Source of the DNA: an uncultured Eubacterium sp.
GTDB lineage: Bacteria; Bacillota; Clostridia; Lachnospirales; Lachnospiraceae
Assembly: GCA_947385775.1 (NCBI GenBank)
Contig: CANDMI010000032.1
Coordinates: forward strand, 1-40,236
Length of the DNA: 40,236 nt
Direction of reading: 5' to 3'
The translations under genes and the position numbers were made by a program. The notes under the pieces are model-generated. The model had not been told where the DNA came from, made no database searches, and worked only from the letters and a program-made list of their open reading frames with translations. Each line of letters starts with the position of its first letter. The stretch's first letter is position 1. Below are positions 12,284-37,601 of this stretch, in pieces.

Positions 12284-12285
12284 GA

Positions 12286-12322
12286 AAATGCAGTTGTTCG
12301 GAATTTCCGAACAACTGCATTT
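12286..12322. terminator. Long hairpin between convergent rlmD and lacZ
   Basis: A 17-bp perfect stem (12286-12302 with 12306-12322) has a three-base loop. There is only a TTTG on the plus side, but an A-rich left flank gives a T-rich tail on the minus strand. It separates the two convergent genes and probably stops transcription in at least one direction. Confidence 0.75.
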
Positions 12323-12374
12323 GATGGAAAAAACTATAATACAATTCATTATAATCTTGACATGATTATTTCTC

Positions 12375-20233
<7,859 letters not shown>

Positions 20234-22823: not shown

Positions 22824-24917
22824 ATGAAAAGGCTTGGAATATTCGTATTTTATGACAAAGAAGGAATCGTAGACGACTATGTGGTATATCTTTTAAAAAG
22901 CATACAACCATATTTAGACAAACTGGTCATAGTCTGCAACGGAAAGCTTACAGAAGAAGGTAAAAGCCGCCTGTCGGCGTTTTCCGACAGCATTACCGTA
23001 AGGGAAAATACCGGTTATGACGCAATGGCCTATAAGCTTGCGATGACAGAGTATCTGGGCTGGGAGGAAGTGCAAAAGTATGAGGAAGCGCTGCTGTTTA
23101 ACGACACATTTTTCGGCCCGTTTTACCCGTTTTCAGAAGTGTTTCAGAAAATGGAAAACACTCCATGCGACTTCTGGGGACTGACGTATCATGAAAAAGC
23201 GAAAGATTATTACAATGGGACAGACGAGATCCTTCCGCCTTGTTTGCAGACCTATTTTTGCGCTTATCGAAAATCCGTATTAAAAAGCGACGCGTTTATG
23301 GACTACTGGAATCGGTTCGATTCTACGGAATGGATTTTTTCAGACGTGGCGCGCCATGAGCAGTTTTTCACAAAATATTTAGAAGACGCGGGGTTTACAT
23401 GGGACGCGTATGTGGACGCAAAAGAATACAACTCCAGGGAGCCGGAGGGCAACTTTATCCAATATTATTATGTCGCCCATGAATTAATACGCGATTACCG
23501 CTGCCCGGTGATCAAGCGGAAAAATTTTGTGATCAAGCGCATGAACATGCAGTCTGGCAACACAGGAGAAGACATTGCCAACGCATTGCGCTACATTGAT
23601 AAAAACACAGATTACGACATAAACCTGATCTGGAGCAATATCCTTCGTTTATACAACATTACCGAGATCAAAAACGCCCTGCATTTAGATTACGTGCTTC
23701 CATGGAATCAGGCGCAGGCGTTGCCAGCTGTCCATGCGCATGAAAAAACAGTGGTCATTGCCTATCTGTCTTATGAAAACAGGCTAGAGCAATGCCTGTC
23801 CTATTTACAGCGGATACCGGAAACGATTGATTTATATATCGCAACGCCAGACCGGGAAATTGAAAGACAGATACGCGACATTTGCCAACAGCCAGCGTGG
23901 AAAAACTGCCACGTTCTTCCTGTGCTGGACAAAGGGCAAAAAAACTGCCACGTTCTTCCTGTGCTGGATAAAGGGCGGGAAATCGGCGCGCTTCTTATCG
24001 AATGCAAGGATTTATTGAAAAAATATGAGTACGTCTGCTTCGTGCATGATGAAAAAATCGAATCCGAAATGGCCCCGGTAACGATCGGGAAATCCCATAT
24101 GTACAATATGTGGGAAAATACGTTAAAGAGCACGGCTTATATCGAAAATGTCCTAAGCCTTTTTGAGCAAAACAGCCGCCTGGGATTTCTCGCGCCGCCG
24201 CAGCCAATTCATGCGGGCTATTTTGGCTCCATTGGCAAGGAATGGGGAAACAATTACGAAAATACAGTCAAACTGGCCCAAAAGCTGGGGATACAGACCG
24301 CGTTTTCCGTAGATATCCCATGCTTTGCGCTTGGAAATACATTCTGGTGCAGGACAAAAGCCTTACAGCCGCTTCTCGCGCATGGCTTTACCTACGAGGA
24401 GCTGACAAATGAGCCGACGCAGACAGACGGCGCGTTTTGCCATGCGATAGAGCGCATTTACCCATACGCCGCGCAGTCACAGGGCTATTACTCCGGAATT
24501 GTGATGAATACCGATTACGCTTCGCTGCAAAACACAAACCTGTATCACTATTTATCCGGCGTTTTGTCCGCGTTACGCGCTCGCCAGACGATTACCGATT
24601 ACGATTCGGTTTTCCAGACTGACGTGCTGTCTTACTGCAAAGGAAAAGAAAACATTTTAATATACGGAGCCGGGACGGACGGGGTAAAAACGTCAAACAT
24701 CTTAAAAAACAACCAGATTTACATCAAAGGCTTTATCGTATCCGACGACCAGCCAAGACAGGAAGAAAAAAACGGTTTCCCAATTTACCGATTATCCGAA
24801 ATTCCTTACGAGAAACAAAACATCGGGATTATAGTCGCCGTAGGATATTCCAGGGACAGGAGAGAGGTGTTAAACAATTTGGCGAAAAAAGGGTATGAAG
24901 ATTTTTATCAGTTGTAA
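22824..24917 (+). CDS. RgpF-like rhamnan/surface-glycan synthesis protein
   Basis: A 697-residue protein. The first RgpF-type domain covers about 1-230 (FYDKEGIVDDYVVYLLKSI, ENTGYDAMAYKLAM, LLFNDTFFGPFYPF). A second, divergent copy covers about 305-595 (VVIAYLSYENRLEQCLSYL, YVCFVHDEKIESEM, PQPIHAGYFGSIG). The C-terminal domain, about 608-697, starts NILIYGAGTDGVKTSNIL and looks like a nucleotide-binding Rossmann module. RgpF proteins act in rhamnose-polysaccharide assembly and side-chain transfer at the cytoplasmic face of the membrane. GGGGAGG lies upstream of the ATG. An in-frame 13-residue tandem duplication (KNCHVLPVLDKG twice) is present near residues 360-385. It is convergent with the TagF-like/LicD pair. 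Confidence 0.85.
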   Translation: MKRLGIFVFYDKEGIVDDYVVYLLKSIQPYLDKLVIVCNGKLTEEGKSRLSAFSDSITVRENTGYDAMAYKLAMTEYLGWEEVQKYEEALLFNDTFFGPFYPFSEVFQKMENTPCDFWGLTYHEKAKDYYNGTDEILPPCLQTYFCAYRKSVLKSDAFMDYWNRFDSTEWIFSDVARHEQFFTKYLEDAGFTWDAYVDAKEYNSREPEGNFIQYYYVAHELIRDYRCPVIKRKNFVIKRMNMQSGNTGEDIANALRYIDKNTDYDINLIWSNILRLYNITEIKNALHLDYVLPWNQAQALPAVHAHEKTVVIAYLSYENRLEQCLSYLQRIPETIDLYIATPDREIERQIRDICQQPAWKNCHVLPVLDKGQKNCHVLPVLDKGREIGALLIECKDLLKKYEYVCFVHDEKIESEMAPVTIGKSHMYNMWENTLKSTAYIENVLSLFEQNSRLGFLAPPQPIHAGYFGSIGKEWGNNYENTVKLAQKLGIQTAFSVDIPCFALGNTFWCRTKALQPLLAHGFTYEELTNEPTQTDGAFCHAIERIYPYAAQSQGYYSGIVMNTDYASLQNTNLYHYLSGVLSALRARQTITDYDSVFQTDVLSYCKGKENILIYGAGTDGVKTSNILKNNQIYIKGFIVSDDQPRQEEKNGFPIYRLSEIPYEKQNIGIIVAVGYSRDRREVLNNLAKKGYEDFYQL
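23901..23978 (+). repeat. 39-bp in-frame tandem duplication in the rgpF-like gene
   Basis: Bases 23901-23939 and 23940-23978 are identical except for three positions (GAC/GAT and the final AA/GG). Each encodes KNCHVLPVLDKG plus one residue. The near identity indicates a recent slip duplication that keeps the frame. Confidence 0.95.
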
Positions 24918-24920
24918 GCA

Positions 24921-25000
24921 GCAGTCCATTTAATAAAATTAAGTGAAATGTCTTTAGAAGATATTGCAGAAGCTACGGAACGGCAACTGGATGTTGTAAA
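24921..25000 (+). pseudogene. Possible C-terminal scrap of an Rpn-family nuclease/transposase
   Basis: Directly after the rgpF-like stop the reading gives KLSEMSLEDIAEATERQLDVVK, which resembles the (G)MSLEDIAE.T.LS.E.V tail of Rpn/PD-(D/E)XK transposases. No start, no body and no matching promoter are present, and it runs into the terminator hairpin. Similarity is by eye to a short low-information motif. Confidence 0.35.
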
Positions 25001-25034
25001 AACAGCCTCATATATTTTTAAGAGGCTGTTTTTT
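24998..25034. terminator. Bidirectional terminator between rgpF-like and TagF-like genes
   Basis: AAAAACAGCCTC (24998-25009) pairs with GAGGCTGTTTTT (25022-25033) around an AT-rich loop, with T runs on both strands. It serves the convergent genes on each side. Confidence 0.9.
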
Positions 25035-25073
25035 AATCAAGATTTTATTTATGTTAAATTTATATTAAGACAT

Positions 25074-27617
25074 TTACAAAGAAATAATTTCCCGGTAGAT
25101 CCGTGCGCCTACATTTTGATAAGGCTTTTGCTCGTTCTTGTTTTCAAAATGTAGGATATGATCTAAATAATTTTCCAGGCTGCATTGATAAAAACGGGCT
25201 TCCGTTTTCATATGCTGGCAAAACAATTCGTGAAAGTCAATATCCGGGATATCCGTTGTAAAAAGCTCCGCTTCCTTTTCCAGACTCCCATGATTCAAAA
25301 ACAAAAAGCGGTTATAAAACATGGAAAAAAGAATCAGCCGTTCCTTATCGCAAAAAATCGGGATCATTTTTCTGCGCCCGCTGATCCCGCGGTTTTCCTG
25401 GCCATGCATACAAGAGATTGTTTTTGGATTTCTCGCTTCTATATTATCCGTTTCCATATCGATCACAAAAATCTCCTGGCTAAGAAATGCAAAAACAAAA
25501 ACCTGCCTGCCATTTGCAAGAGCCTGGTCAAGCTCCGTGTCTTTAGATTCCAAGATCAGCGTGCATATTTCATCCTTCGGGTTCCAAAGCGCCGCTTTCT
25601 TGCCCGAAACAACCAGGCATTCGCTGTCCGTGTATGGAAATACGCCTTTTAAATTTTCCGTATATTTTTGTGGAAGCCTTTTCAAAACCGCCTGTCCTGT
25701 ATGGATATCATATTCGACAATAACGCGGGAAGCTGTAAAAGGAATGTATATTTTTTGCTGTATGCATGTACAATACCCGATCTTTTCCGCCGAATTTAAT
25801 CCGGCGACGCGGTCAGGAATGCATCCGCACCGGTTTATACTTCCCGTGTCCAAATGAAACCGTATCATCTCGATATCAGAAAATGACCCGATGAAATATA
25901 TCTCGCGTCCAAATACAAAGCCAGTCTGGAATTTTGGCTTGGCGATAGCCGCGATATCCTCCGGCAACGGATAAGAGCGCATTGTTTTCGTTTTCGTATC
26001 AAAAGTTACAATCGCTTTCGCCCGCAAAGGCGGGAATATAAGAAGCTCCCCGGCCTGTACGATATCGCCATACAGATCCTCCTGCAAAAAAGGCTCCTGG
26101 TCAAAAGAAGCTTCCAGTTTCGCTTCTGGAGGATTTTTTTGCACAGCATCCGCCGTTAGCAATGGAAAACGGTATAATCCGTTCATTTCCGGCAAAGTAA
26201 ACCACAGATCATTCTCCACAAGCGCCGGTTGAAAACGAAACCAAAGCTGCATATCAGGAGCATCGGGATGGAAAAACTCACTATCTACGTTTTGAAGCAG
26301 CATCGGCTTATTTAAAATCTGATAGCTGATCAAAAGACTGCTGTAATCCCCATAGTACGCGTCGGAAACCGCCATCGCAAGGTTTGGGTCCGGCGTTTGA
26401 TCAAAAATGCCCCAGCCCTCTTTTCTGTACTGTCGGATAAGCGCATCGTAAGCGTCCCGCAGCTGCGGGCGCATTGTTTTCAACGTTTTTTCCAGCAAAG
26501 GATGCGGGCGCCAAAGCAATATAATATCATCCTTTAATTTTCGGAATAAATTTAGCACAGACTCGATTTTTTTCAGCGACTTTTCATTATTTGCCAACAG
26601 CGATGAAATCGAAAGGTTGTACAATACGATCTTTTTCCTGCCGCCGTCTGGCTTTCGTATCGCGTTTTGCCATTGCTCTGGCAGGCGCTCCATCTCGCAA
26701 TTTGTATTGGCTAATTTATCCGTTTTTGGAGAGCCAAGCGGCAAAAACTTATCCTTTGCGCTTACCAATATAGGCTCGAAGCCATGCTCCTTTACAAAAT
26801 TTGTGTAAATACCGCAAAATCTCTGATAGATCGCCCCCGGCTGCACGATCGCCTTGTCCGCAAACAAAATGCCCGGCGTATAGCACTGAAAATAATCCGG
26901 CCCGTATTCCTGCGTCATATAATAAGGAACATAGACAAGCAGTTCGGTATGCTTTTTCAAATTCCTGGAATAATACCGCTCCGGCACCCTGGTCACGGTA
27001 TTCATATCATCGTAGGGGTTGTGGAAAAAAATAATGTCAGGATGCCGCTTTTCGATGTCATAATCCTGATAAGATGTTATCGGCACATCCTGCGGATAAA
27101 GGCCGCCCTCATAGCGCAGCTCCCCGAGAGAATTGTCCGCCAGCACATCGTATACAGGAAGCGGCATAACATAGCAGTCCGTTTGCGTATCCTGGGAAGC
27201 CGCTTTCCAAACGCTTTCTAAAGAATCCCACATAGATACCTGATATGACAAAAATAAGATTTCAGTCTTTACAGGAAACTTTCGGATATCCTTCTTTAAG
27301 TCCGCGATCAATTTCTGAATCCCCCCGCACAACGCGTTTATTTGCTCCAGAGCGTTTGCATTATTTAAATCAGGAAATAATATACTGCACTCATAATACA
27401 GCTCGCACAGATCCTCCAGCTTTTTCACCGCAAACTGGCAGTCAGCCTCCTTTTCCTCCAAAAGGTTGCCGGCGTCTATCGTGATCTGCTGCATGTTTGT
27501 TAATAAGTACACTCCGTTTTCCGATAAACCAGATAAAGCCGCATCCCTTACTGAGCTTATCGCCTGTGTTAATACTTGAAATGTCTGGTTTATTTTTTTG
27601 CTGTCGCTTTTATTCAT
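25074..27617 (-). CDS. TagF-like CDP-alcohol phosphotransferase with beta-propeller
   Basis: An 847-residue protein with three parts. A helical N-terminus covers about 1-112. The middle, about 115-480, has the signatures of the CDP-glycerol:poly(glycerophosphate) transferase family: PLGSPKTD (293-300), RPHP (370-373) and DAYYGDYSSLLISY (Asp424, Ser426, Ser427). The C-terminal part, about 510-800, has repeated blades (VTFDTKTKTMRSYPLP, VEYDIHTGQAVLKRLP, FVIDMETDNIEARNP) of a beta-propeller. TagF-type enzymes polymerise glycerol phosphate on the inner membrane face using CDP-glycerol. The propeller is unusual and could bind the glycan acceptor (inference). The start ATG overlaps the licD stop by eight bases, so the two are translationally coupled. 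Confidence 0.78.
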   Translation of the reverse strand: MNKSDSKKINQTFQVLTQAISSVRDAALSGLSENGVYLLTNMQQITIDAGNLLEEKEADCQFAVKKLEDLCELYYECSILFPDLNNANALEQINALCGGIQKLIADLKKDIRKFPVKTEILFLSYQVSMWDSLESVWKAASQDTQTDCYVMPLPVYDVLADNSLGELRYEGGLYPQDVPITSYQDYDIEKRHPDIIFFHNPYDDMNTVTRVPERYYSRNLKKHTELLVYVPYYMTQEYGPDYFQCYTPGILFADKAIVQPGAIYQRFCGIYTNFVKEHGFEPILVSAKDKFLPLGSPKTDKLANTNCEMERLPEQWQNAIRKPDGGRKKIVLYNLSISSLLANNEKSLKKIESVLNLFRKLKDDIILLWRPHPLLEKTLKTMRPQLRDAYDALIRQYRKEGWGIFDQTPDPNLAMAVSDAYYGDYSSLLISYQILNKPMLLQNVDSEFFHPDAPDMQLWFRFQPALVENDLWFTLPEMNGLYRFPLLTADAVQKNPPEAKLEASFDQEPFLQEDLYGDIVQAGELLIFPPLRAKAIVTFDTKTKTMRSYPLPEDIAAIAKPKFQTGFVFGREIYFIGSFSDIEMIRFHLDTGSINRCGCIPDRVAGLNSAEKIGYCTCIQQKIYIPFTASRVIVEYDIHTGQAVLKRLPQKYTENLKGVFPYTDSECLVVSGKKAALWNPKDEICTLILESKDTELDQALANGRQVFVFAFLSQEIFVIDMETDNIEARNPKTISCMHGQENRGISGRRKMIPIFCDKERLILFSMFYNRFLFLNHGSLEKEAELFTTDIPDIDFHELFCQHMKTEARFYQCSLENYLDHILHFENKNEQKPYQNVGARIYREIISL

Positions 27618-28506
27618 ACTGGTTCCCCTGCGGTAAATTTTCGCGGTAATATCTTTCCTGGATTTCTTTTAAAGTAATGTCTGGCAGTTCGATATAGGAT
27701 GCGTCCGCATGTCCCACACGTTCATGCTCCGGTGGCAGCTGCATATAATCTCCATAAGATAGCTGCAAAAATCGGTCGTAATCCGTGATCGACATAAAAC
27801 GCATACCCTCAAATTCCAGATCCATATATTCGTCGTAGCAGCTGGCAGGCATTCCGTACTTGCATTCCGGGCCTGGGTTTGGATACATCGTATGGGCCGC
27901 AAGCTTCGTTTTTTTCTGGTTGCACAACCCCGCCATACGGTTTCGGGCCTGAAACGCCAAATCTCTTGGTATTTTGTTCAAAAGGCTGTACCAAGCTCTC
28001 ATAAACTTCGTTTTTTCCGCCGTTTTTCCAAGCTCGGAATACAAAATCTTGCGTATGGCAAAATTCACTCCATAATAAATTCTGCGCAACGCGAAATTAT
28101 CCGGCACATGATCTAACGGAAACAGATCGATATAAACGCCTGATTGGTATTTCAAATGCTCCTGCCCCGCCCGAATGTATTTGGTGCCCTTACGGCGCAA
28201 TTTCGCATATCCCCACCGATACTCCGGATCTGTACGGTATTCCTGTAAGAAAAAACGCTCCGTATCCAGGTCTTTTTTACAGGCGCGGTAAAATTTCGCG
28301 TATTCATGTCGTGGAAACACGATATCCGCGTCGTCGTCCCACGGGATAAAGCCCTTATGCCGCACCGCCCCCAGCAAAGTCCCGCCGTCAAGCGTATACG
28401 TAATCCCATGCTTCCTGCATATCCGGTCCACTTCCACAAGCATTTCCAGCTCAGTTAATTGAAGCTTCCTTAAATCTTCCCGAGATAGTGTGATTGGTTT
28501 GCTCAT
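27610..28506 (-). CDS. licD: LicD family phosphotransferase
   Basis: The start is set at 28506 (MSKPITLSREDLRKLQL) with AAGGAG about eight bases upstream; the frame is open further but without similarity. The product is 298 residues. LicD motifs are clear: TLDGGTLLGAVRHKGFIPWDDDADI at about 38-62 and a second conserved block near MDLEFEGMRF at about 225. LicD enzymes move phosphocholine or related phospho-groups from a CDP-linked donor onto cell-surface glycans. Here the neighbouring operon makes phosphonates and contains a LicC-like nucleotidyltransferase, so a phosphonate head group is a reasonable substrate (inference). It is coupled to the TagF-like gene. Confidence 0.9.
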   Translation of the reverse strand: MSKPITLSREDLRKLQLTELEMLVEVDRICRKHGITYTLDGGTLLGAVRHKGFIPWDDDADIVFPRHEYAKFYRACKKDLDTERFFLQEYRTDPEYRWGYAKLRRKGTKYIRAGQEHLKYQSGVYIDLFPLDHVPDNFALRRIYYGVNFAIRKILYSELGKTAEKTKFMRAWYSLLNKIPRDLAFQARNRMAGLCNQKKTKLAAHTMYPNPGPECKYGMPASCYDEYMDLEFEGMRFMSITDYDRFLQLSYGDYMQLPPEHERVGHADASYIELPDITLKEIQERYYRENLPQGNQYE

Positions 28507-28531
28507 TTGTTTACTCCTTATAGTATCAATC

Positions 28532-28750
28532 TCATTCATTTCTTGGTTTGATGTCTGCGTTTTTATCGAATATATAATTTTTGCTGTGCTCCCTGCCAAT
28601 ATTAGCTTCTCGACAATCCCGCTGAAACCCATTTTTTTGCATATGCCGCTTTATGATTTCATAACTGCCCCGCCAGTTTTCACTGGGGTAATAAATTTCA
28701 AGCGCTTTTGTGTCAAGGTCAAAAGCGATTTGTTTTCTTGACTTTGCCAT
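28532..28750 (-). pseudogene. VapD-like (Cas2-fold) fragment
   Basis: The reading MAKSRKQIAFDLDTKALEIYY and the following NWRGSYEIIKRHMQKNGFQ match the start of VapD-type virulence-associated RNases. After GFQ (residue 43, about base 28622) the similarity stops; the remaining 29 codons do not resemble the HRQGSGYVS core that should follow. It is therefore a truncated gene, or a fusion to unrelated sequence at the edge of licD. It starts two bases after the stop of the upstream 100-residue gene, the arrangement expected of an antitoxin/toxin pair. Confidence 0.65.
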
Positions 28751-28752
28751 AA

Positions 28753-29055
28753 CTAAAATACCGGCATTTCCAAAACTTTTAGAATATCGCAATTTTCTCC
28801 TGGTTCCTCATCGTCAATCCATTGCCATGAATTTACTTGGCTTAAAAAATCATGTTTGTCCTCAAGCTCCAGCATCCCAACTTCCAGACAGCCAAATAGT
28901 TCATCTCCGCCTTTGAATATGAATTTGTATGGATCATTGCTGGAATTTTTGACTATGCCGGCCCGGTTCGAGAAAGCTTTTTCTGCAATTTTACGCAAGC
29001 CCGACAACAGCTCGCCAGGCACATTTTCTTTAATTTCTATAATAGAACTATACAT
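28753..29055 (-). CDS. Uncharacterised 100-residue protein upstream of VapD-like fragment
   Basis: I do not recognise a named family. The sequence (MYSSIIEIKENVPGELLSGL, AGIVKNSSNDPYKFIFKGG, FGCLEVGMLELEDKHDFLS, ending ILKVLEMPVF) is small, acidic and soluble, with no membrane segment. AAAGGAG lies eleven bases upstream and a clear minus-strand promoter is at 29132-29160. Because it sits two bases before a VapD-like gene, an antitoxin role (as VapX to VapD in Haemophilus) is possible, but this rests on context only. Confidence 0.75.
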   Translation of the reverse strand: MYSSIIEIKENVPGELLSGLRKIAEKAFSNRAGIVKNSSNDPYKFIFKGGDELFGCLEVGMLELEDKHDFLSQVNSWQWIDDEEPGENCDILKVLEMPVF

Positions 29056-29131
29056 ATTTTCAAATACTCCTTTTGAAAAATATACTTTCCTTTATTATGG
29101 TAAATAACGATATCAAATAATATATAAAGTA

Positions 29132-29160
29132 AGTATATAAGTTTTTGAAACACAAATCAA
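29132..29160 (-). promoter_or_regulatory. Promoter of the small-protein/VapD-like pair (and perhaps licD)
   Basis: On the minus strand TTGATT (29160-29155) and TATACT (29137-29132) are exactly 17 bp apart. No terminator is visible before licD, so this promoter may also feed licD and the TagF-like gene. Confidence 0.7.
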
Positions 29161-29244
29161 GCCGAAATATTGCGACCTTACGCCTTAATAGTTACAGTTC
29201 AACATTTGGTTTCACGGTAACCCTTAATATGCTTAGAATACCAG

Positions 29245-29273
29245 TTGACGCAACCCCATAACTTTGATAAATT
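29245..29273 (+). promoter_or_regulatory. Probable promoter of the phosphonate operon
   Basis: TTGACG (29245-29250) and TAAATT (29268-29273) are 17 bp apart. This would give a leader of about 140 nt before the PEP mutase gene. The -35 box is strong and the -10 box is weak. Confidence 0.55.
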
Positions 29274-29418
29274 AAATACATAACCCGCATTCCCACATCA
29301 TTCGCGATCAACCCCCGCGATTCAAAAACAAAAAGATCAAAATCAGGAAAACAGGAAAACCAAAAATTTATTTAAAACAAAAAATCAAAACAAGAAAACA
29401 CGGATAAAGGAAAAACAT

Positions 29419-30708
29419 ATGAAAAAAATATATACGTGCTTTTGCACAGACATCATCCACGAAGGCCATCTCAACATATTAAAAGAAGCCGCCAAATACG
29501 GAAAAGTCATCGTAGGCGTGCTGACGGATTCCGAGATGATCCGGTACAACCGATTTCCGACAAAGACCACCCAGCAGCGTGTGAAAATGGTGGAAGCGCT
29601 GCCAGGGGTGGACCAGGTCATCATACAGGACACGATTATGTATGACCATATCGTCGAGCAATACCGTCCCGATTACGTAATCCATGGCAATAACTGGGGA
29701 GGGCCGGGGATGAAGACGATCCGGGATAACATCGTTTCGCTCTTAGATAAATACGGGGGAGAGTTGATCGAGATTCCATACACGAGCAATCCAGTCACAA
29801 GAAAGATCGACAAACAGATGATACAAAAGCTTGCGATGCCGGAGTTTCGAAGAGGAAGGCTGAAAAAGCTTTTGAATCTGGTTCCGATCGTAAAAACGAT
29901 CGAAGTCCACAGCGGGCTGACAGGGCTGATCGCTGAAAAAACAATTGTGGCAAATGGAGAAGCGATCGACCAGTTTGACGCGATGTGGGTCAGTTCCCTT
30001 TGTGACAGCACGGATAAAGGCAAGCCGGATATTGAGCTTGTGGATATGACAAGTCGCTTCCAGACGATCAACGATGTAATGGAGGTTACGACAAAGCCGA
30101 TCATATTTGACGGCGACACAGGCGGCATGACCGAGCATTTTATATACACCGTACGCTCCTTAGAGCGCATGGGCGTATCCGCAGTCATCATAGAGGATAA
30201 GACCGGGTTAAAGAAAAACAGCCTGTTTGGAACCGAAGTGGAGCAGACCCAGGATACGATCGAAAATTTTTGCGCAAAAATAAAGGCGGGCAAGCAGGTG
30301 CAGCTTTCCGACGACTTTATGATCATCGCCCGCATTGAAAGCCTGATCTTAGAAAAAGGAATGGAAGACGCGCTTACGCGGGCATTTGCATTTCGCGATG
30401 CTGGGGCGGACGGCATCATGATACATAGCCGCAAAAAAGATCCGGCGGAAATCTTAGAATTTTGCGATAAATTCCGTATGCAGGATAAAGACACGCCGAT
30501 TGTCGTCGTTCCAACGTCCTTTAATTCCATTACCGAGCAGGAGCTTGCGGAGCATGGCGTAAACGTAGTGATCTACGCAAACCAGCTCATGCGCGCGGCA
30601 GTCCCGGCAATGAAAGAAGCCGCGGCCGAGATACTAAAATACCACAGGGCGCTAGAAATCGACGATAAGCTTATGCCGTTTAAAGAAATTATCCGGATGA
30701 TTGATTAA
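29419..30708 (+). CDS. aepX: PEP mutase fused to a TagD-like nucleotidyltransferase domain
   Basis: A 429-residue two-domain enzyme. Residues about 1-125 form a TagD/cytidylyltransferase-like domain with the HEGH motif at 14-17 and GNNW near residue 91. The second family signature (GISTT in TagD) is not kept: the aligned stretch reads YTSNPVTRK. Residues about 140-429 are PEP mutase, with FDGDTGG and the diagnostic EDKxxxKxNS as E259-D260-K261 to N267-S268 (EDKTGLKKNS). PEP mutase converts PEP to phosphonopyruvate, the committed C-P bond step. The reaction is thermodynamically unfavourable and needs the decarboxylase encoded at the end of the operon. It is the first gene of a seven-gene operon. 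Such fusions are, to my knowledge, found in other phosphonate clusters. Confidence 0.93.
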   Translation: MKKIYTCFCTDIIHEGHLNILKEAAKYGKVIVGVLTDSEMIRYNRFPTKTTQQRVKMVEALPGVDQVIIQDTIMYDHIVEQYRPDYVIHGNNWGGPGMKTIRDNIVSLLDKYGGELIEIPYTSNPVTRKIDKQMIQKLAMPEFRRGRLKKLLNLVPIVKTIEVHSGLTGLIAEKTIVANGEAIDQFDAMWVSSLCDSTDKGKPDIELVDMTSRFQTINDVMEVTTKPIIFDGDTGGMTEHFIYTVRSLERMGVSAVIIEDKTGLKKNSLFGTEVEQTQDTIENFCAKIKAGKQVQLSDDFMIIARIESLILEKGMEDALTRAFAFRDAGADGIMIHSRKKDPAEILEFCDKFRMQDKDTPIVVVPTSFNSITEQELAEHGVNVVIYANQLMRAAVPAMKEAAAEILKYHRALEIDDKLMPFKEIIRMID

Positions 30709-30732
30709 AAGAATTGAAAACGAGGTATGAAA

Positions 30733-30972
30733 ATGTATGCGTTAAAAGGATATTACGATGGGGAAAACATCCAGCTATTAGAAAAAAACCCGGCAAAAAA
30801 AAATCAAAAATTGATCATTACGGTATTAGATGAATTTGTCAGCGAAGAGCCTGTGGAAAAAGAACATAAAACAGCCAAAGGCGCATTGTCAAAATATGCA
30901 GATCCAAATCTGTGGGAGCTTGAGGATTCTGCATGGGAAAAGGCGGTAATGAAAGAAACTATTGCAAAATAA
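30733..30972 (+). CDS. Small antitoxin-like protein without a toxin partner
   Basis: The start is set at 30733, where GAGG lies seven bases upstream; the ATG at 30727 is too close to it. The product is 79 residues. It starts MYALKGYYDGENIQLLEKNP, continues LIITVLDEFV, and ends with KGALSKYADPNLWELEDSAWEKAV, the pattern of small Clostridia proteins often found upstream of PIN or RelE toxins (beta-hairpin N-terminus, then a toxin-wrapping tail). Here the next gene is a phosphoesterase, so no toxin is visible. It is embedded in the phosphonate operon with 24 nt before it and 28 nt after it. Confidence 0.75.
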   Translation: MYALKGYYDGENIQLLEKNPAKKNQKLIITVLDEFVSEEPVEKEHKTAKGALSKYADPNLWELEDSAWEKAVMKETIAK

Positions 30973-31000
30973 CGATCAATAAATCATAGCAGGTAAAAAT

Positions 31001-31732
31001 ATGGCAAAATACGCAATCCTATCAGACATACACGGCAACCTGCCGGCATTGCAGGCCGTCTGCTCGGACATAGAAAAACAAAACATAGACGCGGCCCTGC
31101 TGCTGGGCGATATCATCGATTACGGTATGCAGTCAAACGAATGCGTGCGCTATATCAGCAGGCAGTTTCCCTGCCAGATAAAATGTAATCTTTGGGGGAA
31201 TCATGAGCGCGCCATCATGCAGTCTGATTTCACAGGCTTTTCCTCCAAGCGGGGCGCGGAGTCGGCAATGCATACGGCGAAAAAATTAAATCAGGATGTA
31301 AAAGAATATCTGGATAAAGAACTAACGCACGAAGGATATCAGGAATTGGAATTAGACGGGTTAAAAGCTTTGGCGGTGCACGGTTCTTTGGAAAATCCGT
31401 ACTGGAAATCGATATTCCCGGAAAACGTAAACGGAGATTATTCTTCCTATGACGTAGTGTTATCCGGGCATTCGCACAATTCTCATATGTTTACAAAATT
31501 CTACCGAAAAGAAGATGAAAAAATGAGAAACCAGCATACGGTCATTTTTCTCAACCCAGGCTCCGTCGGACAGCCGAGAAACCATCGTCCGCAGGCGCAG
31601 TACGCTGTTTTTGACACAGATACAAAGGCGGTTGAAATGCGGGCGTTAAATTACGATATCAAACTTGCAATGTCCTATTTTGACGGCAGCGTCGATGATT
31701 TTTACCGGACAAGGCTGCTGACTGGAATATAA
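31001..31732 (+). CDS. Calcineurin-like metallophosphoesterase (YfcE/MJ0936 type)
   Basis: A 243-residue cytoplasmic protein with the full metallophosphoesterase motif set: SDIHGN at 8-13, LLGDIIDYG at about 34-42, GNHE near 67, GHSHNSHMF near 157 and NPGSVGQPRNH near 187. These bind two metal ions and hydrolyse phosphomonoesters or phosphodiesters. It follows the small antitoxin-like gene by 28 nt and is followed by the SDR gene after 34 nt. Its place in the phosphonate operon suggests a phosphodiesterase or phosphatase step on a nucleotide-linked intermediate, but a housekeeping role cannot be excluded. Confidence 0.88.
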   Translation: MAKYAILSDIHGNLPALQAVCSDIEKQNIDAALLLGDIIDYGMQSNECVRYISRQFPCQIKCNLWGNHERAIMQSDFTGFSSKRGAESAMHTAKKLNQDVKEYLDKELTHEGYQELELDGLKALAVHGSLENPYWKSIFPENVNGDYSSYDVVLSGHSHNSHMFTKFYRKEDEKMRNQHTVIFLNPGSVGQPRNHRPQAQYAVFDTDTKAVEMRALNYDIKLAMSYFDGSVDDFYRTRLLTGI

Positions 31733-31766
31733 AAAATTGGAATATAAAAAATCAGGAGGGATAACA

Positions 31767-32771
31767 ATGGGAAAATTATACGCCATCAGCGGCGTTACTG
31801 GCATGACGGGAAACGAGCTTGTGCGGCAGATCTTATCCGATAAACAGGCGGACGACCATATCTTGGGCTTTGACAACTTTTTCGCTTCCTCCATAGATAC
31901 GGTAAAAGACTGCCTTGGGGACAGCCGTTTCGAATTTTTTGAATACGATTTAAATAACAAAAGCCAGATGCAGGATTTTGAAGAACGCGTGAACGGGCAA
32001 AAAAGCGGCTATGGCGAAATCATCTATATCAACTGCGCGGCAGTCGTCCATACCGAGCACTTTTATCATGTATACGAAACCTATGAGACAAATGTCACAG
32101 GCATGAACGACTTTTTGCAGCAGGCGATCCGCGTTAAGGCGCAAAAATACATCAACTGTTCCACGTCAGAGGTGTATTCCATGAATTCCTGGAATGAAAA
32201 CGGGGGAGTCAAAGAGAGCGACTATATCACAATGGCGGACGCGGAGCACAGCCAGCGCACATCCTATGCGGCGGGAAAGCTTCTAACAGAGTTTTTCATG
32301 AAAGACGCGGTGGATGAGGGAAAGATCAAAGGCTGCTCGATTCGTTTTGCAAACGTCTACAGCCGGAATGAAAAATATCCAAAGCACATCATTCCATTTA
32401 TCATAAACAGCTTAAAAAACGACGGCAAAGTCGTCCTGTTAGAAAACAGCAAAAAAAATAAAAGGACGTTTCTAAATAACTACGATAGCTGTAGCGCGGT
32501 GCTTGCCTTGGCGCAGACGGAAACCGCGCTGGATGGAAGCATTTACAACGTGGCCACCGATGAAGAAATATCTATTATAGATCTGGTAAAACTGTGCGCG
32601 AAAAAAATGGGGATTGAAAATCCCGTTATCGAATTTGAGGGCTACCGCGAATCCGACCCGCCGCGCCGCCTGCTTTCCACAGAAAAGATCAAACAAAGAA
32701 CGTCCTGGAGGCCAAAGGTCACGCTGGACGCAGGCTTAGAGGAATGCGTAAAAAATTATATAAAAGTTTAA
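31767..32771 (+). CDS. NAD-dependent epimerase/dehydratase (extended SDR)
   Basis: The start is set at 31767, with AGGAGGG seven bases upstream (MGKLYAISGVTGMTGNELVR). The product is 334 residues. The Rossmann glycine motif is SGVTGMTG at 8-15. The catalytic Tyr167 and Lys171 are in SYAAGK, preceded by the Ser region NCSTSEVY at about 130. The C-terminal part carries FRFANVYSRN-like and DPPRRLLSTEKI elements of sugar-nucleotide epimerases. The family acts on UDP/GDP/dTDP-sugars; which one is used here is not visible. It could make the sugar that carries the phosphonate. Confidence 0.9.
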   Translation: MGKLYAISGVTGMTGNELVRQILSDKQADDHILGFDNFFASSIDTVKDCLGDSRFEFFEYDLNNKSQMQDFEERVNGQKSGYGEIIYINCAAVVHTEHFYHVYETYETNVTGMNDFLQQAIRVKAQKYINCSTSEVYSMNSWNENGGVKESDYITMADAEHSQRTSYAAGKLLTEFFMKDAVDEGKIKGCSIRFANVYSRNEKYPKHIIPFIINSLKNDGKVVLLENSKKNKRTFLNNYDSCSAVLALAQTETALDGSIYNVATDEEISIIDLVKLCAKKMGIENPVIEFEGYRESDPPRRLLSTEKIKQRTSWRPKVTLDAGLEECVKNYIKV

Positions 32772-32788
32772 TATAGGAAAATAGCAAA

Positions 32789-33583
32789 ATGAAGATCGCA
32801 ATCATAACAGCGGCTGGAGTCTCCAGCAGATTTAATGAAGGAATCATAGACAGTGAAAAACAGTTAAAAGTCATATATCAGGAAAAAGAAAGCCCGGACA
32901 CGCTGCTTTTGCATTTAGTCAGAAAATGCGCCTATGCGGATGAGATCATACTCGTTGGCGGCTATAAATACGAAGAATTAAAAAACTATGTAAGCGAAAA
33001 GCTGCCGGCGAATCTTGTAAAAAAGATCACGCTGGTCTTTAACCCGCATTTTCATGACCTTGCATCCGGCTATAGCTTTTACATGGGACTGTCCGAGGCG
33101 TTGCGCCGGGAAGACGTAGAAGATATCCTGTTCGTAGAGGGGGATTTGGACATAGACGAAGAATCCTTTCAAAAAGTGGCGGAAAGCCAAAACACCGTGT
33201 TGACCTATAACCGGGAGCCGATTTATTCCAATAAAGCGGTCGTCTTATACCAGACCGGCGACGGGGCGTATCACTACGCGTTTAATTCCGCCCACGGTCT
33301 GTTGACCATTGAAGAACCGGTAAAATGCATCCTAAACTCCGGCCAGCTGTGGAAATTCACAGATATCGACGAGCTGTCGGATGCAAATCAATACTTTGCC
33401 CAGGAGGATATTACAGGAACGAACCTGCTGATCATACAGCGTTACCTGGATGCTTTGACAGATAAAAAAAGCGGTCCGTCCGTCCTTGGCATAAAAAAAT
33501 GGGCAAATTGCAACACAAGAGAAGATTTTCATAAAATCAGGGAAGGATGGCAGGAGCATGAAGCAGTTAACGGAAAGATTTAA
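32789..33583 (+). CDS. LicC/PntC-like nucleotidyltransferase
   Basis: A 264-residue GT-A-type nucleotidyltransferase. The nucleotide-binding loop is ITAAGVSSRF at 6-15 with a Lys nearby (SEKQLKVI). The metal-binding region is EGDLDID with Asp119 and Asp121, and a GYSFYMGL stretch lies near 92. The arrangement is that of choline-phosphate (LicC) and 2-aminoethylphosphonate (PntC) cytidylyltransferases, which charge small phosphonate or phospho head groups with CMP. In this operon it probably makes a CDP-phosphonate for LicD or the TagF-like protein (inference). Its 3' end overlaps the next gene by 26 nt. Confidence 0.82.
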   Translation: MKIAIITAAGVSSRFNEGIIDSEKQLKVIYQEKESPDTLLLHLVRKCAYADEIILVGGYKYEELKNYVSEKLPANLVKKITLVFNPHFHDLASGYSFYMGLSEALRREDVEDILFVEGDLDIDEESFQKVAESQNTVLTYNREPIYSNKAVVLYQTGDGAYHYAFNSAHGLLTIEEPVKCILNSGQLWKFTDIDELSDANQYFAQEDITGTNLLIIQRYLDALTDKKSGPSVLGIKKWANCNTREDFHKIREGWQEHEAVNGKI

Positions 33584-34742
33584 AAAATTAGAGAGCCATA
33601 TCAAAGAAGACGGCGTGACAGTCATGATCGTCGGGCTTGGAAGTGTAGGGACTTACCTGTTAGACTATCTTGTTTCCACAAACGATGAAGCGCTCCATAT
33701 CGTCGCCGCAGGCCGCGACCGCGCAAAAATGGAGCAAAAAGTCAATATTGTGCGGATCGCCGGGCTGATACGCCAGGTCAACCGTTCAAAAATAGACATA
33801 GAGCCAGGCGTGGAGCTTTCAGATATCGATTCTATAAAATCAGCGATTGAAAAATGGAAGCCGGACTTTATCGTAAATTCCAGCCGCGCGTATCCGGGAT
33901 TAAAATACGGGAGCATAAGCTGGAAAAATATCCGCGCGTATGGGATATGGACGCCGCTTGCCATCCGTTTCACCAAAAACATCATGGAAGCCTGTGAAAA
34001 AGCAGGCTCCGACGCGGTTGTGATAAATACCTCCTATTCTGACGCGGTCATCCCGTGGCTAAAAAGCGCGGGAAAGGCATACCCGGATTTTGGCTCTGGC
34101 AACCTGAACCATCTGATACCAAGAATCCGTTACGCGGCTGCGCAGCTGCTTGGCGCGGAGGATTATTGGAATATCGATGTGGATTTTGCCGCCGGGCACT
34201 TCCATGACGTGTGCATAAGCAAAGAAGGGCATACCGAGGGAGTAGAGCTTCCGCTTCGGATATGCTATAAAGGAGAAGAAAAACAGCTCGACCTAGATTA
34301 TGATAAAATATTCAAACTGTGCAGCATCCCGATGCCGGTAGACGCGCAGCGCAACATGATGAACGCTTCCAGCAATTTCGCCATCATAGACGCGCTTTTA
34401 AAAACCGTGCGGACAGGAAGGAGCCAGAAAATCTTTATCCCTGGCGCGTTTGGAAATCTGGGCGGCTATCCGGTTATCACAGGCTATCGCGATGGAAATC
34501 TGGACGCATGGATAGACGAGTCCGTATTTCCATTTGAAAAAATGAGCCAGTGCAACCAAAAATCCATGTACTTAGACGGCGTAGAAAACATAAGCGACGG
34601 GGCTTTGTATTATACCGATGAGCTGATCCAAAAAGTAAAAGACGCGTTTGGCGCACAGCTGCCAAAGCGGGTCGGATTCGACGAAATCGAACATGTCAGC
34701 CAGCTTTTGATCGATAAAGTGATCATGCCAAACATTTCATAA
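33558..34742 (+). CDS. Saccharopine-dehydrogenase-like Rossmann oxidoreductase
   Basis: A 394-residue protein. The NAD(P)-binding motif VMIVGLGSVGTYLLDYL is at about 22-38. A PDFIVNSSRAYPG stretch at about 95-107 and an INTSYSDAVIPWL stretch at about 155-167 are kept as in saccharopine-dehydrogenase-type folds. The C-terminal catalytic part is not recognised. The start overlaps the upstream gene by 26 nt and GCAGGAG is very close to the ATG, so the start is somewhat uncertain. Placed between the nucleotidyltransferase and the phosphonopyruvate decarboxylase, it is the only clear oxidoreductase besides the SDR; a role in reducing phosphonoacetaldehyde or a condensed product is speculative. Confidence 0.8.
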   Translation: MKQLTERFKKLESHIKEDGVTVMIVGLGSVGTYLLDYLVSTNDEALHIVAAGRDRAKMEQKVNIVRIAGLIRQVNRSKIDIEPGVELSDIDSIKSAIEKWKPDFIVNSSRAYPGLKYGSISWKNIRAYGIWTPLAIRFTKNIMEACEKAGSDAVVINTSYSDAVIPWLKSAGKAYPDFGSGNLNHLIPRIRYAAAQLLGAEDYWNIDVDFAAGHFHDVCISKEGHTEGVELPLRICYKGEEKQLDLDYDKIFKLCSIPMPVDAQRNMMNASSNFAIIDALLKTVRTGRSQKIFIPGAFGNLGGYPVITGYRDGNLDAWIDESVFPFEKMSQCNQKSMYLDGVENISDGALYYTDELIQKVKDAFGAQLPKRVGFDEIEHVSQLLIDKVIMPNIS

Positions 34743-34766
34743 TAAAATAAGAAAGGATTTCCTGTT

Positions 34767-35885
34767 ATGAGAGTGGAGGACTTTACAAACAGCATCGACG
34801 CAGGCTTTTACGCAGGCGTGCCGGACAGCCAGTTAAAAGCGCTGTGCGATTATCTGGTTCATACATATGGCGCGCATGGCGACCGCCATATCATAGCCGC
34901 CAATGAGGGCAACGCGTTAGCGATCGCCGCCGGATATCATCTTGCGACGGGCAAGATCCCGCTTGTATATATGCAAAACAGCGGAGAGGGAAACATCATC
35001 AACCCACTGGCAAGCCTGACAAACGAAAAAGTATACGCGATTCCGTGCGTGCTCGTGATCGGCTGGCGCGGGGAGCCGGGCGTAAAAGATGAGCCGCAGC
35101 ACATTTACCAGGGCGAAGTGACCTGTAAGCTGTTAGAAGATATGGGCATAGAATACTGCATACTTTCCAAAGACACGACCACAAAGCAGCTGGAAGCACA
35201 AATGGAAAAATTTCGGGGGCGGCTGTCAGCCGGGCGTTGCGTAGCTATCGTAGTCCGAAAGGGCGCGCTTGTCTATGAAAAAGAAATCCATTACCGCAAC
35301 CAAAATTCCATAACCCGAGAAGAAGCGATCCGACATATCCTGTCCGCAAGCGGAGACGACCCTGTCATATCCACGACCGGAAAAGCGAGCCGCGAGCTGT
35401 TTGAAATCCGTGAAGCGAACGGAGAGGGACATAGCAGCGATTTCCTCACCGTAGGTTCCATGGGCCATTGCAGCTCGATTGCGTTGGGAGTCGCCTTACA
35501 CCAGCCGGAAAAAACGATCTGGTGCATAGACGGCGACGGCGCAGCCTTAATGCATATGGGAGCCTTGCCCGTGATCGCCCATTGCCGCCCAAAAAACCTG
35601 ATCCATATCATAATTAATAACGGGGCCCACGAAACAGTCGGGGGCCAGCCTACGGTAATGGAAGGCAGAAGCTTTGAGGAAATCGCAAAAGCCTGTGGCT
35701 ATCCGCACAGTATCAGCGTATCCGATATAAAAGACCTGGATAAAGAGCTTGCGGCGGCAAAATCCAGGAAAGATTTAACTATGCTGGAAATCAAATGCGG
35801 CCTTGGCGCAAGGCCGGACTTAGGCAGGCCGACAACGAGCGCGCTGGAAAATAAGCAGATGTTTATAAAAGCGCTGAAAAACTAG
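34767..35885 (+). CDS. aepY: Phosphonopyruvate decarboxylase
   Basis: A 372-residue thiamine-diphosphate enzyme, the usual length for the family. The cofactor-activating Glu47 is in AANEGNALAIAAGYHLATG. MQNSGEGNIINPLASLT is typical of phosphonopyruvate decarboxylases. The ThDP/Mg motif begins at G256-D257-G258 (DGDGAALMHMGALPVIA) and ends with INNGAHETVGGQPT. It converts phosphonopyruvate to phosphonoacetaldehyde and CO2, pulling the PEP mutase equilibrium forward. AAAGGA lies upstream of the ATG. It is the last gene of the operon; no transaminase or alcohol dehydrogenase follows it. Confidence 0.94.
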   Translation: MRVEDFTNSIDAGFYAGVPDSQLKALCDYLVHTYGAHGDRHIIAANEGNALAIAAGYHLATGKIPLVYMQNSGEGNIINPLASLTNEKVYAIPCVLVIGWRGEPGVKDEPQHIYQGEVTCKLLEDMGIEYCILSKDTTTKQLEAQMEKFRGRLSAGRCVAIVVRKGALVYEKEIHYRNQNSITREEAIRHILSASGDDPVISTTGKASRELFEIREANGEGHSSDFLTVGSMGHCSSIALGVALHQPEKTIWCIDGDGAALMHMGALPVIAHCRPKNLIHIIINNGAHETVGGQPTVMEGRSFEEIAKACGYPHSISVSDIKDLDKELAAAKSRKDLTMLEIKCGLGARPDLGRPTTSALENKQMFIKALKN

Positions 35886-36020
35886 CAAACTGTGGATAAA
35901 AAATAATTTTCAAAAATAAGGCTAAACTATTCCGTAAATGTGCCGAAATATAATGCAAGAGTTATACATAGGTTTGATGGATTCCGAATACAGCGGTTTA
36001 AGGAGTGGAAACGGCTATTT

Positions 36021-37418
36021 ATGAAAAAACCTATGAAACTTTTACGAAATCTCCTGGTTGGAGTCTTCGCTATGTCTCTGTGGGTTGGCGTAAATAGTCA
36101 GACCGTAAGGGCAGATGAAGAAGCTTCGATCATGCCGATTGACATCACGATTGACTATGCGAAACAAAAGCTGATCCTTTCCGAAAGGAGCACAAGGGAC
36201 AGCGAGATACGCTACGAGTTTGGCGTACGCAAGTATGTGAAGAAATACGACACGGAGATATGTAAGTTTTACACATCGTCTACCTTAGACTATAAGGATG
36301 GATTGACGATTGACTTATCCTCACTGAAACGTGAGAAAGACAACTACATCCGCTTGTCCGGGAACTATAACGAATCGCCAATTACAATCAAGATACCGGC
36401 GATCAATACAAAAGTGAAAGCGAAGTTTGACCCGGTTACGGCTGGCGTGAGAATGTATGATAATACGGATAAGATGGATGCGTCGCAGTATACAACAGAA
36501 AAAATCGAGTACCGTAGCGGTTGCAGCAAATGGGAAGAATACGAGTATTTCGATGATTTTGATGTATACAGCAATTTATCCAAATACCAGCAGCGTGGGG
36601 CAGTGCTTTATTTCCGACTGAAAGCGGAAGATGCGCAGCTGCTATATACGACCGTGCAGCAGCCTACATTTGGAGACATTGAGGATGAAAACGGAGACGC
36701 TATTCCGGTATACGAAGCGTTAAGCTTTCCTGGCAAGGAAGTGAAGGTAGTCATACCAAGGCTGCCGAAAGCTCCGAAGGTAAAAGTGAACTACGATAAG
36801 CAGATATTTACGCTCCCAAAAGGAACGGAATATCGCGTGGTAAACACACGCAGCGATATGAAATGGATACCTGCGAAAAAGTCAACAAGCCTTCAGGTGG
36901 ATTTATCCGACCTTACTGCAAAGTACGGAACGGACAGCAGTATCATTTTTGAAGCCAGGCTGTCACAGACAGAAACAAAGCCAGCGTCAAGATTGTACAG
37001 AGTATGCGCGTCCATACCGGATCAGCCAAAAGTGTCAGCCATTAAAAGCAGCGTGATAATTGACGGCAAGCAAAACATAGACCAAAGCTGTTTAAAAGAT
37101 GAGTTCGGCGCAGACGCGCTTGTGGCACAGTATGTATTTAATGAAAAAGGACAACAGTGCGAAGCGGTCAACTTCTGGACGAATCTGGATGAGGCGTATG
37201 AGATATGCACAGTCAAAGGCAGCGGGGAGCCGTCTCCTTCCAATGCGGGAATCCTAAAGTTGAAGCCATTTGGCGATACAAAATTCGTCGTGTCAAAGCT
37301 AAGGGATGGGAGCAGGCTGTTTATCCGCCGCAGGGCGGACGCAAAAGCAAAGCAGTTCAGCGGTCCGTGGGCGGTATTTGGAGTGGTATCTTATCCGGAA
37401 GAAGAACCGGATTATTAG
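36021..37418 (+). CDS. Secreted protein of unknown function, paralogue A
   Basis: The start is set at 36021 (MKKPMKLLRNLLVGVFAMSLW), which begins a signal peptide cleaved near residue 31 (TVRA-DEE); AAGGAG lies 15 bases upstream, a long spacing. The product is 465 residues with no membrane anchor, SLH or LPXTG motif. It shares an ordered set of blocks with the next gene: LSSLKREKDNYIRL, ITIKIPAINTKVKAKFDP, FPGKEVKVVIP, LPKGTEYRVV and DGSRLFIRRRADAKAKQF. The shared blocks suggest repeated beta-rich modules. A TATAAT at 35949-35954 could be its -10 box, without a good -35. I do not recognise a named family. Confidence 0.85.
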   Translation: MKKPMKLLRNLLVGVFAMSLWVGVNSQTVRADEEASIMPIDITIDYAKQKLILSERSTRDSEIRYEFGVRKYVKKYDTEICKFYTSSTLDYKDGLTIDLSSLKREKDNYIRLSGNYNESPITIKIPAINTKVKAKFDPVTAGVRMYDNTDKMDASQYTTEKIEYRSGCSKWEEYEYFDDFDVYSNLSKYQQRGAVLYFRLKAEDAQLLYTTVQQPTFGDIEDENGDAIPVYEALSFPGKEVKVVIPRLPKAPKVKVNYDKQIFTLPKGTEYRVVNTRSDMKWIPAKKSTSLQVDLSDLTAKYGTDSSIIFEARLSQTETKPASRLYRVCASIPDQPKVSAIKSSVIIDGKQNIDQSCLKDEFGADALVAQYVFNEKGQQCEAVNFWTNLDEAYEICTVKGSGEPSPSNAGILKLKPFGDTKFVVSKLRDGSRLFIRRRADAKAKQFSGPWAVFGVVSYPEEEPDY

Positions 37419-37481: not shown

Positions 37482-37601
37482 TAAAGTGGTATTATGGAAT
37501 CCATCCCACGCTATGTTTTGGGTATAACTCAAAGAACAAAGCAAATGTATGAACAGACAGGGATGTATATGTTCAACAATATTACAAGGAGGTATTCAAT
37601 T

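Follow-up and report, generated by a model that had tools for sequence, protein, structure and literature searches.

A conserved cross-phylum gene module in a putative phosphonate surface-tailoring operon of an uncultured Eubacterium sp.

Gene content of the operon and its surroundings

The window analysed here is a stretch of 40,236 nucleotides (contig CANDMI010000032.1 of assembly GCA_947385775.1) from an uncultured Eubacterium sp. of the Lachnospiraceae. It contains an operon in which the genes for a phosphoenolpyruvate (PEP) mutase and a phosphonopyruvate decarboxylase (Ppd) enclose four further genes, here called Mpe, SDR, DUF6564 and Sdh. A first-pass annotation of the sequence had proposed a pathway for a phosphonate-decorated surface polymer, and profile matches together with a map of open reading frames (ORFs) located all the genes it named at about the positions it gave them. 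The features are:

29419-30708, + strand: CyPepM, a cytidylyltransferase-PEP mutase fusion (TIGR02320, 412.1 bits, cut-off 319.55)
30727-30972, + strand: ORF of 81 amino acids (aa) between the PEP mutase and Mpe genes, outside the conserved cassette
31001-31732, + strand: Mpe, a calcineurin-like metallophosphoesterase (Metallophos_2, PF12850, 75.4 bits)
31737 (TTG) or 31767 (ATG, the probable start) to 32771, + strand: SDR, an extended short-chain dehydrogenase resembling nucleotide-sugar dehydratases and decarboxylases
32789-33583, + strand: DUF6564, a MobA/LicC-like nucleotidyltransferase (PF20202, 307 bits)
33558-34742, + strand: Sdh, a saccharopine-dehydrogenase-like Rossmann oxidoreductase of the NADP type (PF03435, 25.5 bits, cut-off 25.1)
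34767-35885, + strand: Ppd (TIGR03297, 457.2 bits, cut-off 312.5)
28632-27610, - strand: LicD, divergent from the operon (PF04991, 148.7 bits, cut-off 22.6)
27617-25074, - strand: TagF-like protein (Glyphos_transf, 37.1 bits, cut-off 22.1; partial match to profile positions 156-297 of 367)
22824-24917, + strand: RgpF (498 bits)

The six co-directional cassette genes are spaced by -26 to 28 bases (overlap or gap), the Sdh and DUF6564 genes sharing 26 bases. Because two above-cut-off equivalogs of one pathway flank a co-directional cassette, and because the set is conserved elsewhere, this arrangement goes beyond chance. We regard the operon as real, and family assignment above cut-offs predicts that PEP mutase converts PEP to phosphonopyruvate and Ppd converts the latter to phosphonoacetaldehyde. 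These are the two steps already given in the first-pass annotation, and the TIGR02320 and TIGR03297 matches bear them out. Its inventory of the operon (a LicC/PntC-like nucleotidyltransferase, an SDR, a Rossmann oxidoreductase and a phosphoesterase) likewise stands but overlooked the cytidylyltransferase domain (PF01467, 48.8 bits, cut-off 21) at the N-terminus of PEP mutase, so that together with DUF6564 the operon carries two nucleotidyltransferases. The solved structures nearest to CyPepM are PEP mutases, and its N-terminal domain is nearest to 5x3d (E 2.1e-28, 48/120 residues identical), which we take to be Fom1. The window protein contains the sequence EDKxxxxxNS, given as the PEP mutase motif in the main text of PMC6697681. 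The sole other PF13714 match in the window genome is below cut-off; a second PEP mutase was rejected there, the candidate being a ketopantoate hydroxymethyltransferase (PanB).

A four-gene module on related PEP mutases

Related loci were collected by scanning genome_contigs with an alignment of Sdh, which found 85 relatives and returned 80 loci. These loci are thus selected by Sdh; counts out of 81 comprise them and the window, and many of the stretches end at contig ends. A second sample consisted of 299 genomes of the window's family, to which Kineothrix and other Lachnospiraceae records belong; PEP mutase relatives were taken there at E values up to 1e-20 and up to 20 kb around each was mapped. 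Among the 81 loci, Sdh was present in 79, DUF6564 in 78, Mpe in 73, SDR in 71, Ppd in 68 and PEP mutase in 64, counts that are slightly low because the gene picker chose opposite-strand ORFs in L091 and L108 and dropped their Sdh and SDR. The exact order PepM-Mpe-SDR-DUF6564-Sdh-Ppd is kept in 32 of the 81 loci, and the run Mpe-SDR-DUF6564-Sdh survives in several rearranged orders. PEP mutase lies on the fetched stretch in 67 of the 80 loci (63 with the full motif and four contig-end fragments) and elsewhere in the genome for nine of the remaining 13, which gives a total of 76 of 80. In the family sample, 32 of 299 genomes have a PEP mutase relative and four have Sdh, all four belonging to the 32 (hypergeometric 1.1e-4, relatedness ignored). 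The real novelty of the locus lies in Mpe, SDR, DUF6564 and Sdh, which together make up a module conserved between phyla.

Most module loci come from Lachnospiraceae and other Bacillota; seven are from Methanobrevibacter and eleven from Bacteroidales or their kin (L135-L145), while single records are labelled Treponema, Selenomonadaceae, Synergistales, Acidaminococcaceae and Muribaculum. The majority of the records are metagenome bins. The PEP mutase labelled Muribaculum groups among those of Bacillota, and this label may reflect a binning error; a search of the Treponema-labelled genome found no PEP mutase. On the PEP-mutase tree the Methanobrevibacter loci fall together in a single clade (support 100/100) within the Bacillota, and several of them have purine and other chromosomal genes downstream in common, for which reasons they look genuine and not like contaminants. 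The module was apparently transferred to Methanobrevibacter from Bacillota or in the opposite direction. Methanobrevibacter loci L075, L077, L079, L080, L085, L092 and L099 contain a complete cassette with a divergent upstream LicD gene, much like the window. At another locus (L076:2542-6050), genes whose best matches, all under cut-offs, are to the PhnS2/PhnT2/PhnU2 ATP-binding cassette (ABC) transporter precede the cassette; the family of the substrate-binding protein of this transporter occurs in seven of the 81 loci. A scan of viral_contigs for Sdh returned 75 pattern matches, with no relative among them.

Three types of PEP-mutase cluster were distinguished. Type A clusters, the 2-aminoethylphosphonate (AEP) type, comprise CyPepM, Ppd, an AEP transaminase (TIGR03301, 421.6 bits in L043, cut-off 360.8) and an NTP_transf_3 protein. 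In type B clusters an NTP_transf_3-cytidylyltransferase-PEP mutase triple fusion is accompanied by an iron-containing alcohol dehydrogenase (Fe-ADH; TIGR03405, 145 bits, cut-off 423.7). Type C, that of the window, accounts for four of the 32 genomes with PEP mutase in the family sample (the window, L038, L041 and L046). Some AEP-type clusters also encode a YidC-like membrane insertase domain fused to Glyphos_transf (L039:5307-7415), a family present in 10 loci.

The PEP-mutase tree was limited to rows whose CyPepM match exceeds 360 residues and is free of stops, which left 91 rows (88 of them different, with three loci present twice under two identifiers; the PEP mutases of L041 and L134 are identical, as are those of L046 and L100). 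Type A, with 13 rows, requires 10 label changes on this tree, at least nine of them forced by supported branches, compared with 12.4 in shuffles. For the 61 rows with the module the corresponding values are 12 changes, at least 11 forced, and 25.6 in shuffles, and the 10 rows of type B with Fe-ADH require two changes. Transaminase and module loci are thus intermixed on the tree, which means that AEP genes and the four-gene module have repeatedly come to stand on closely related PEP mutases.

Pairwise distances in each gene were compared for the 51 loci with a complete set of six genes; dereplication reduced these to 49, and removal of L135-L145 to 39 (the pairs are non-independent). For the 39 loci outside Bacteroidales, distance correlations were 0.69-0.87 within the module, compared with 0.35-0.54 for PEP mutase and 0.40-0.58 for Ppd; for all 49 they were 0.72-0.86, 0.59-0.77 and 0.57-0.61, respectively. 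The four genes track one another more closely than they track PEP mutase, most clearly outside Bacteroidales, and the set looks like a swappable head-group module.

Head group, activation and transfer to the surface

The first-pass annotation had noted that no AEP transaminase is present, and this extends to the whole window genome, where TIGR03301 has no match above cut-off. Transaminase and Fe-ADH genes were then sought in 50 module genomes (46 of those of the 80 loci and four family genomes), a close Fe-ADH relative being defined, by a threshold of our own choosing, as one with E up to 1e-40 to the type B protein of L058. AEP transaminase above cut-off was found in five of the 50 and a close Fe-ADH relative in 11, one genome having both. 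In 35 genomes neither was found, the window's included. Distant transaminase matches occur in all 50 genomes and are uninformative, since 14 of 14 control genomes give them too, none over cut-off. The head group is probably one other than AEP.

The module enzymes allow their roles to be narrowed to some extent. DUF6564 matches PF20202 at 307 bits, compared with 25.5 bits for NTP_transf_3 (PF12804, cut-off 27), its profile reaches LicC (1jyk, E 5.9e-4), and all of 74 sequences retain its EGD motif. The fused cytidylyltransferase domain keeps HxGH in the window, and in nine Bacteroidales loci (L136-L144, eight genomes, with L140 from Prevotellaceae HUN156) this motif has become HPGL, so that the domain may be inactive there; in L124 PEP mutase lacks the domain and has an NTP_transf_3 domain at its C-terminus. 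For these reasons the head group is more likely to be activated by DUF6564 than by the fused domain, and the idea of the latter as sole activator is set back by the HPGL sequences. The solved structures nearest to SDR are dTDP-glucose 4,6-dehydratase (6bi4, E 2.9e-23), UDP-glucose epimerase and UDP-glucuronate decarboxylase, and its TSE and YxxxK motifs are invariant in 24 aligned sequences. Because these relatives act on nucleotide sugars and the motifs are invariant, a nucleotide-bound substrate is suggested for SDR. Mpe is a generic metallophosphoesterase (nearest solved structures 3rqz, 3qfm and YfcE) which perhaps hydrolyses a phosphoester or a cytidine monophosphate (CMP)-phosphonate. 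Matches of the NADP-binding domain to PF03435 were obtained for 50 of 50 Sdh members with E values no higher than 1, the best being 7.1e-9, and no PDB profile matched Sdh to E 0.1. Membership of Sdh in the saccharopine dehydrogenase family beyond the NADP domain was rejected, as the hhalign similarity covers the N-terminal part only. We propose that Sdh acts on phosphonoacetaldehyde or a derivative of it.

Beyond the gene content, conservation, co-occurrence and phylogenetic intermixing that the data show, we infer the reactions past phosphonoacetaldehyde as follows. Sdh, with or without SDR, would carry out an NAD(P)-dependent conversion of phosphonoacetaldehyde; DUF6564, as a relative of LicC and PntC, would turn the product into a CMP-phosphonate; SDR would perhaps modify the nucleotide-bound form, as its nearest relatives do with nucleotide sugars; Mpe might clear or trim a phosphoester; and LicD, judging from its linkage, would attach the head group to a polymer of the cell surface, either a glycan or a teichoic-acid-like chain. 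The module would then fill the place of AEP transaminase and PntC in sister clusters, having been exchanged repeatedly onto the same PEP mutase/Ppd backbone. On balance we favour this explanation, in which the operon serves phosphonyl tailoring of the cell surface and the synthesis and activation of a non-AEP head group fall to the four-gene module. A bolder version, which we offer tentatively and consider possible rather than probable, is that Mpe-SDR-DUF6564-Sdh represents a third, hitherto undescribed phosphonate surface branch whose product is neither AEP nor 2-hydroxyethylphosphonate (HEP). In one form of this reading Sdh would behave as saccharopine reductases do and reductively couple phosphonoacetaldehyde with an amine or amino acid to an N-substituted AEP (a phosphono-opine), DUF6564 would activate this compound and SDR would modify it in its CMP-bound form; the module would move among gut Bacillota, Bacteroidales and Methanobrevibacter in exchange with the AEP module on a common backbone.

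Several points speak against tailoring with a head group other than AEP. The roles of Sdh, SDR, DUF6564 and Mpe are proposals, with putative products, substrates and activities, and the C-terminal, catalytic part of Sdh shows nothing recognisable, hhalign similarity being confined to about 100 N-terminal columns. Full-length transaminase relatives scoring 228-231 bits, short of the cut-off of 360.8, occur in four Methanobrevibacter genomes, and the window genome holds a relative at 153.5 bits, which leaves room for an unrecognised AEP transaminase; L070, the window's nearest relative by PEP mutase (83%), has an Fe-ADH. That the Fe-ADH of type B is a phosphonoacetaldehyde reductase is likely by context only, its score being below cut-off. 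Four module genomes have no detectable PEP mutase, the module lying at a contig end in all four. With Bacteroidales included, the correlation of Mpe with PEP mutase (0.77) falls within the range inside the module (0.72-0.86). Loci entered the set through Sdh, the rows are related to one another, those with transaminase and Fe-ADH come from one family, and labels were assigned by fetched stretch; p-values carry no correction for relatedness. As to transfer, the stretch lacks LicD in 39 of the 80 module loci, and the sequences behind the LicD profile came from module loci.

The strongest competitor, which we judge unlikely yet worth serious attention, is that the product is ordinary HEP. Sdh or SDR would be a non-orthologous phosphonoacetaldehyde reductase, CMP-HEP would be made by the Fom1-like domain or DUF6564, LicD would transfer HEP, and the other module genes would be housekeeping. 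The resemblance of the N-terminal domain to that of Fom1, which according to the main text of PMC6697681 makes CMP-HEP, fits this proposal, as does the fact that both Sdh and SDR are NAD(P) enzymes; at E 1e-40 Fe-ADH is missing from 39 of the 50 module genomes, where another reductase would be needed. However, four conserved genes are many for a one-step reduction, and the fused cytidylyltransferase has lost HxGH in the nine Bacteroidales loci. Moreover, the module would be redundant where it stands beside a natural HEP enzyme. In L078 it shares one locus with an NTP_transf_3-cytidylyltransferase-Fe-ADH fusion, and L103, L106 and L135 also carry Fe-ADH. In the L078 protein (11194-13434, 747 aa) the reductase stands where the triple fusion of type B has its PEP mutase, a hint that HEP is the substrate of the fused cytidylyltransferase.

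It is improbable, in our estimation, that an unrecognised aminotransferase supplies AEP as the head group and that the module merely modifies it further. The distant transaminase matches in all 50 genomes, the four Methanobrevibacter proteins at 228-231 bits and locus L068, where an AEP transaminase and PntC lie inside the module operon, are compatible with it. By contrast, the cut-off is exceeded in five of 50 genomes only, the 14 controls also match distantly, and the conserved core includes no transaminase.

The association of LicD with the operon accords with the preferred reading of surface tailoring. LicD is present on the stretch in 41 of 80 module loci compared with six of 29 other PEP-mutase loci (p 0.005; the rows are related and the profile comes from module loci), and of the 81 loci, 33 have it next to a core gene and 10 have it inside the core set. 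The window genome has six LicD matches, corresponding to about five genes in 4.0 Mb, so that closeness of LicD to the operon would not be expected by chance. Activation as CMP-phosphonate and transfer by LicD, in place of the CDP-activation and transfer suggested by the first-pass annotation, appear from this to be good inferences. Glycosyltransferases also recur in module loci, family 7 in 25 of them.

The TagF-like protein, whose gene overlaps that of LicD by 8 bases, had been described as carrying a beta-propeller. Its C-terminal half is internally repetitive (hhalign of residues 460-660 with 650-847: 69 columns, probability 85%), and this fits a propeller, the evidence consisting of sequence repeats. 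The proposed pairing of this enzyme with phosphonate operons holds in so far as it co-occurs with PEP mutase, being encoded in six of 80 module loci, but these represent about three lineages and the association is not phosphonate-specific. The two halves that the first-pass annotation distinguished, and whose failure ever to co-occur it had set beforehand as counting against it, do co-occur. TagF-like relatives were found in 54 of 299 family genomes, of which 44 have no PEP mutase, and in 10 of the 32 PEP-mutase genomes where 5.8 were expected (p 0.04, or 0.07 when the window's genome is left out); they are missing from the other three family-sample genomes that have the module (G052, G177, G189). 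A LicD-TagF fusion is encoded in the module locus L067 (12396-14951; 852 aa, two genes after Sdh) and in L169 (1501-3951), and LicD lies beside TagF in the window and in L149. Since the genomes of L149 and L169 have no PEP mutase match, the pair is not dedicated to phosphonates; LicD and the TagF-like protein are best seen as a working pair without phosphonate specificity, the latter being an accessory. That the TagF-propeller enzyme is a dedicated partner which polymerizes or attaches the phosphonate is accordingly quite improbable: the gene overlap in the window, the single protein of L067 and the six module loci agree with it, and the few lineages, the three genomes lacking it and the 44 of 54 TagF genomes without PEP mutase disagree. 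Least probable of all is a secreted, antibiotic-like small-molecule phosphonate with LicD and TagF as unrelated capsule neighbours, for although antibiotic pathways also begin with PEP mutase and Ppd (main text of PMC6697681) and in 39 of 80 module loci the stretch is without LicD, the positions of LicD beside or inside the core set, the recurring glycosyltransferases and the fact that most PEP-mutase clusters serve cell surfaces (PMC6697681, likewise) argue against it.

RgpF, which the first-pass annotation had included, was rejected as a part of the system. Its gene, on the + strand, converges on the LicD-TagF pair and lies outside their transcript, and no match was found in 33 family loci or in the 80 module loci. 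The C-terminus of this protein (22824-24917) has a PglD_N-like domain. The 81-aa ORF has no Pfam match to E 0.1 and no tblastn match in the same two sets of loci; it and a 100-aa ORF, which likewise gave no match in family and module loci or to Pfam, were rejected as parts. On the 3' side of the operon, 35940-37418 and 37494-39146 encode two related proteins with signal-like N-termini and no Pfam match; relatives of both sit on another contig of the window genome (L065).

Comparison with known systems

To our knowledge, phosphonate surface groups are thought to be common, with few head groups and few enzymes past phosphonoacetaldehyde being known. A mobile module replacing the AEP genes would provide a short list of testable enzymes, namely two oxidoreductases, one nucleotidyltransferase and one phosphoesterase, and cultured carriers are available in Eubacterium ruminantium ATCC 17233, which has a full cassette at locus L105, and Butyrivibrio sp. 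INlla21 and X503. In methanogens of the rumen and gut the module would also be an example of surface chemistry of the bacterial type. No description of the module or of DUF6564 was found in the open-access literature searched.

The saccharopine dehydrogenase family (PF03435) and Sdh have the NADP-binding domain in common and show no similarity past about 100 N-terminal columns. Closer at hand are the other clusters of the family sample. The AEP-type clusters (L033, L034, L039, L043) share CyPepM (68-72% identical) and Ppd with the window and differ by an AEP transaminase, a PntC-like NTP_transf_3 protein and often a YidC-TagF fusion. The HEP-like clusters (L055, L058) share PEP mutase and Ppd, whereas they have the triple fusion and Fe-ADH and occupy a separate part of the tree. 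A cluster of PEP mutase, Ppd and reductase has been described for Methanocorpusculum (PMC10035134). Fom1 of the fosfomycin pathway has the same cytidylyltransferase-PEP mutase architecture as the window protein, whose HxGH is intact, with 48/120 identical residues in the cytidylyltransferase domain; by contrast, the window genome has no close Fe-ADH relative at E 1e-40 and the setting is a surface-polymer locus.

The nearest precedent is the phosphonyl-tailoring (Pnt) pathway, for whose general logic the main text of Rice et al. 2019 (PMC6697681) proposes a CMP-phosphonate donor for cell-surface glycans. As in the window, PEP mutase occurs there with fused and nearby nucleotidyltransferases, Ppd and a nearby LicD-like transferase. 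The window differs in having no above-cut-off AEP transaminase and apparently no canonical PntC, and in possessing DUF6564 instead, together with Mpe, SDR and Sdh; the terms "epimerase", "metallophos" and "Lachnospir" do not occur in the main text of that paper. Judged from these comparisons of gene content, the phosphonyl-tailoring logic is already known, and the new part is a real and widely spread variant of it with an uncharacterised head-group module.

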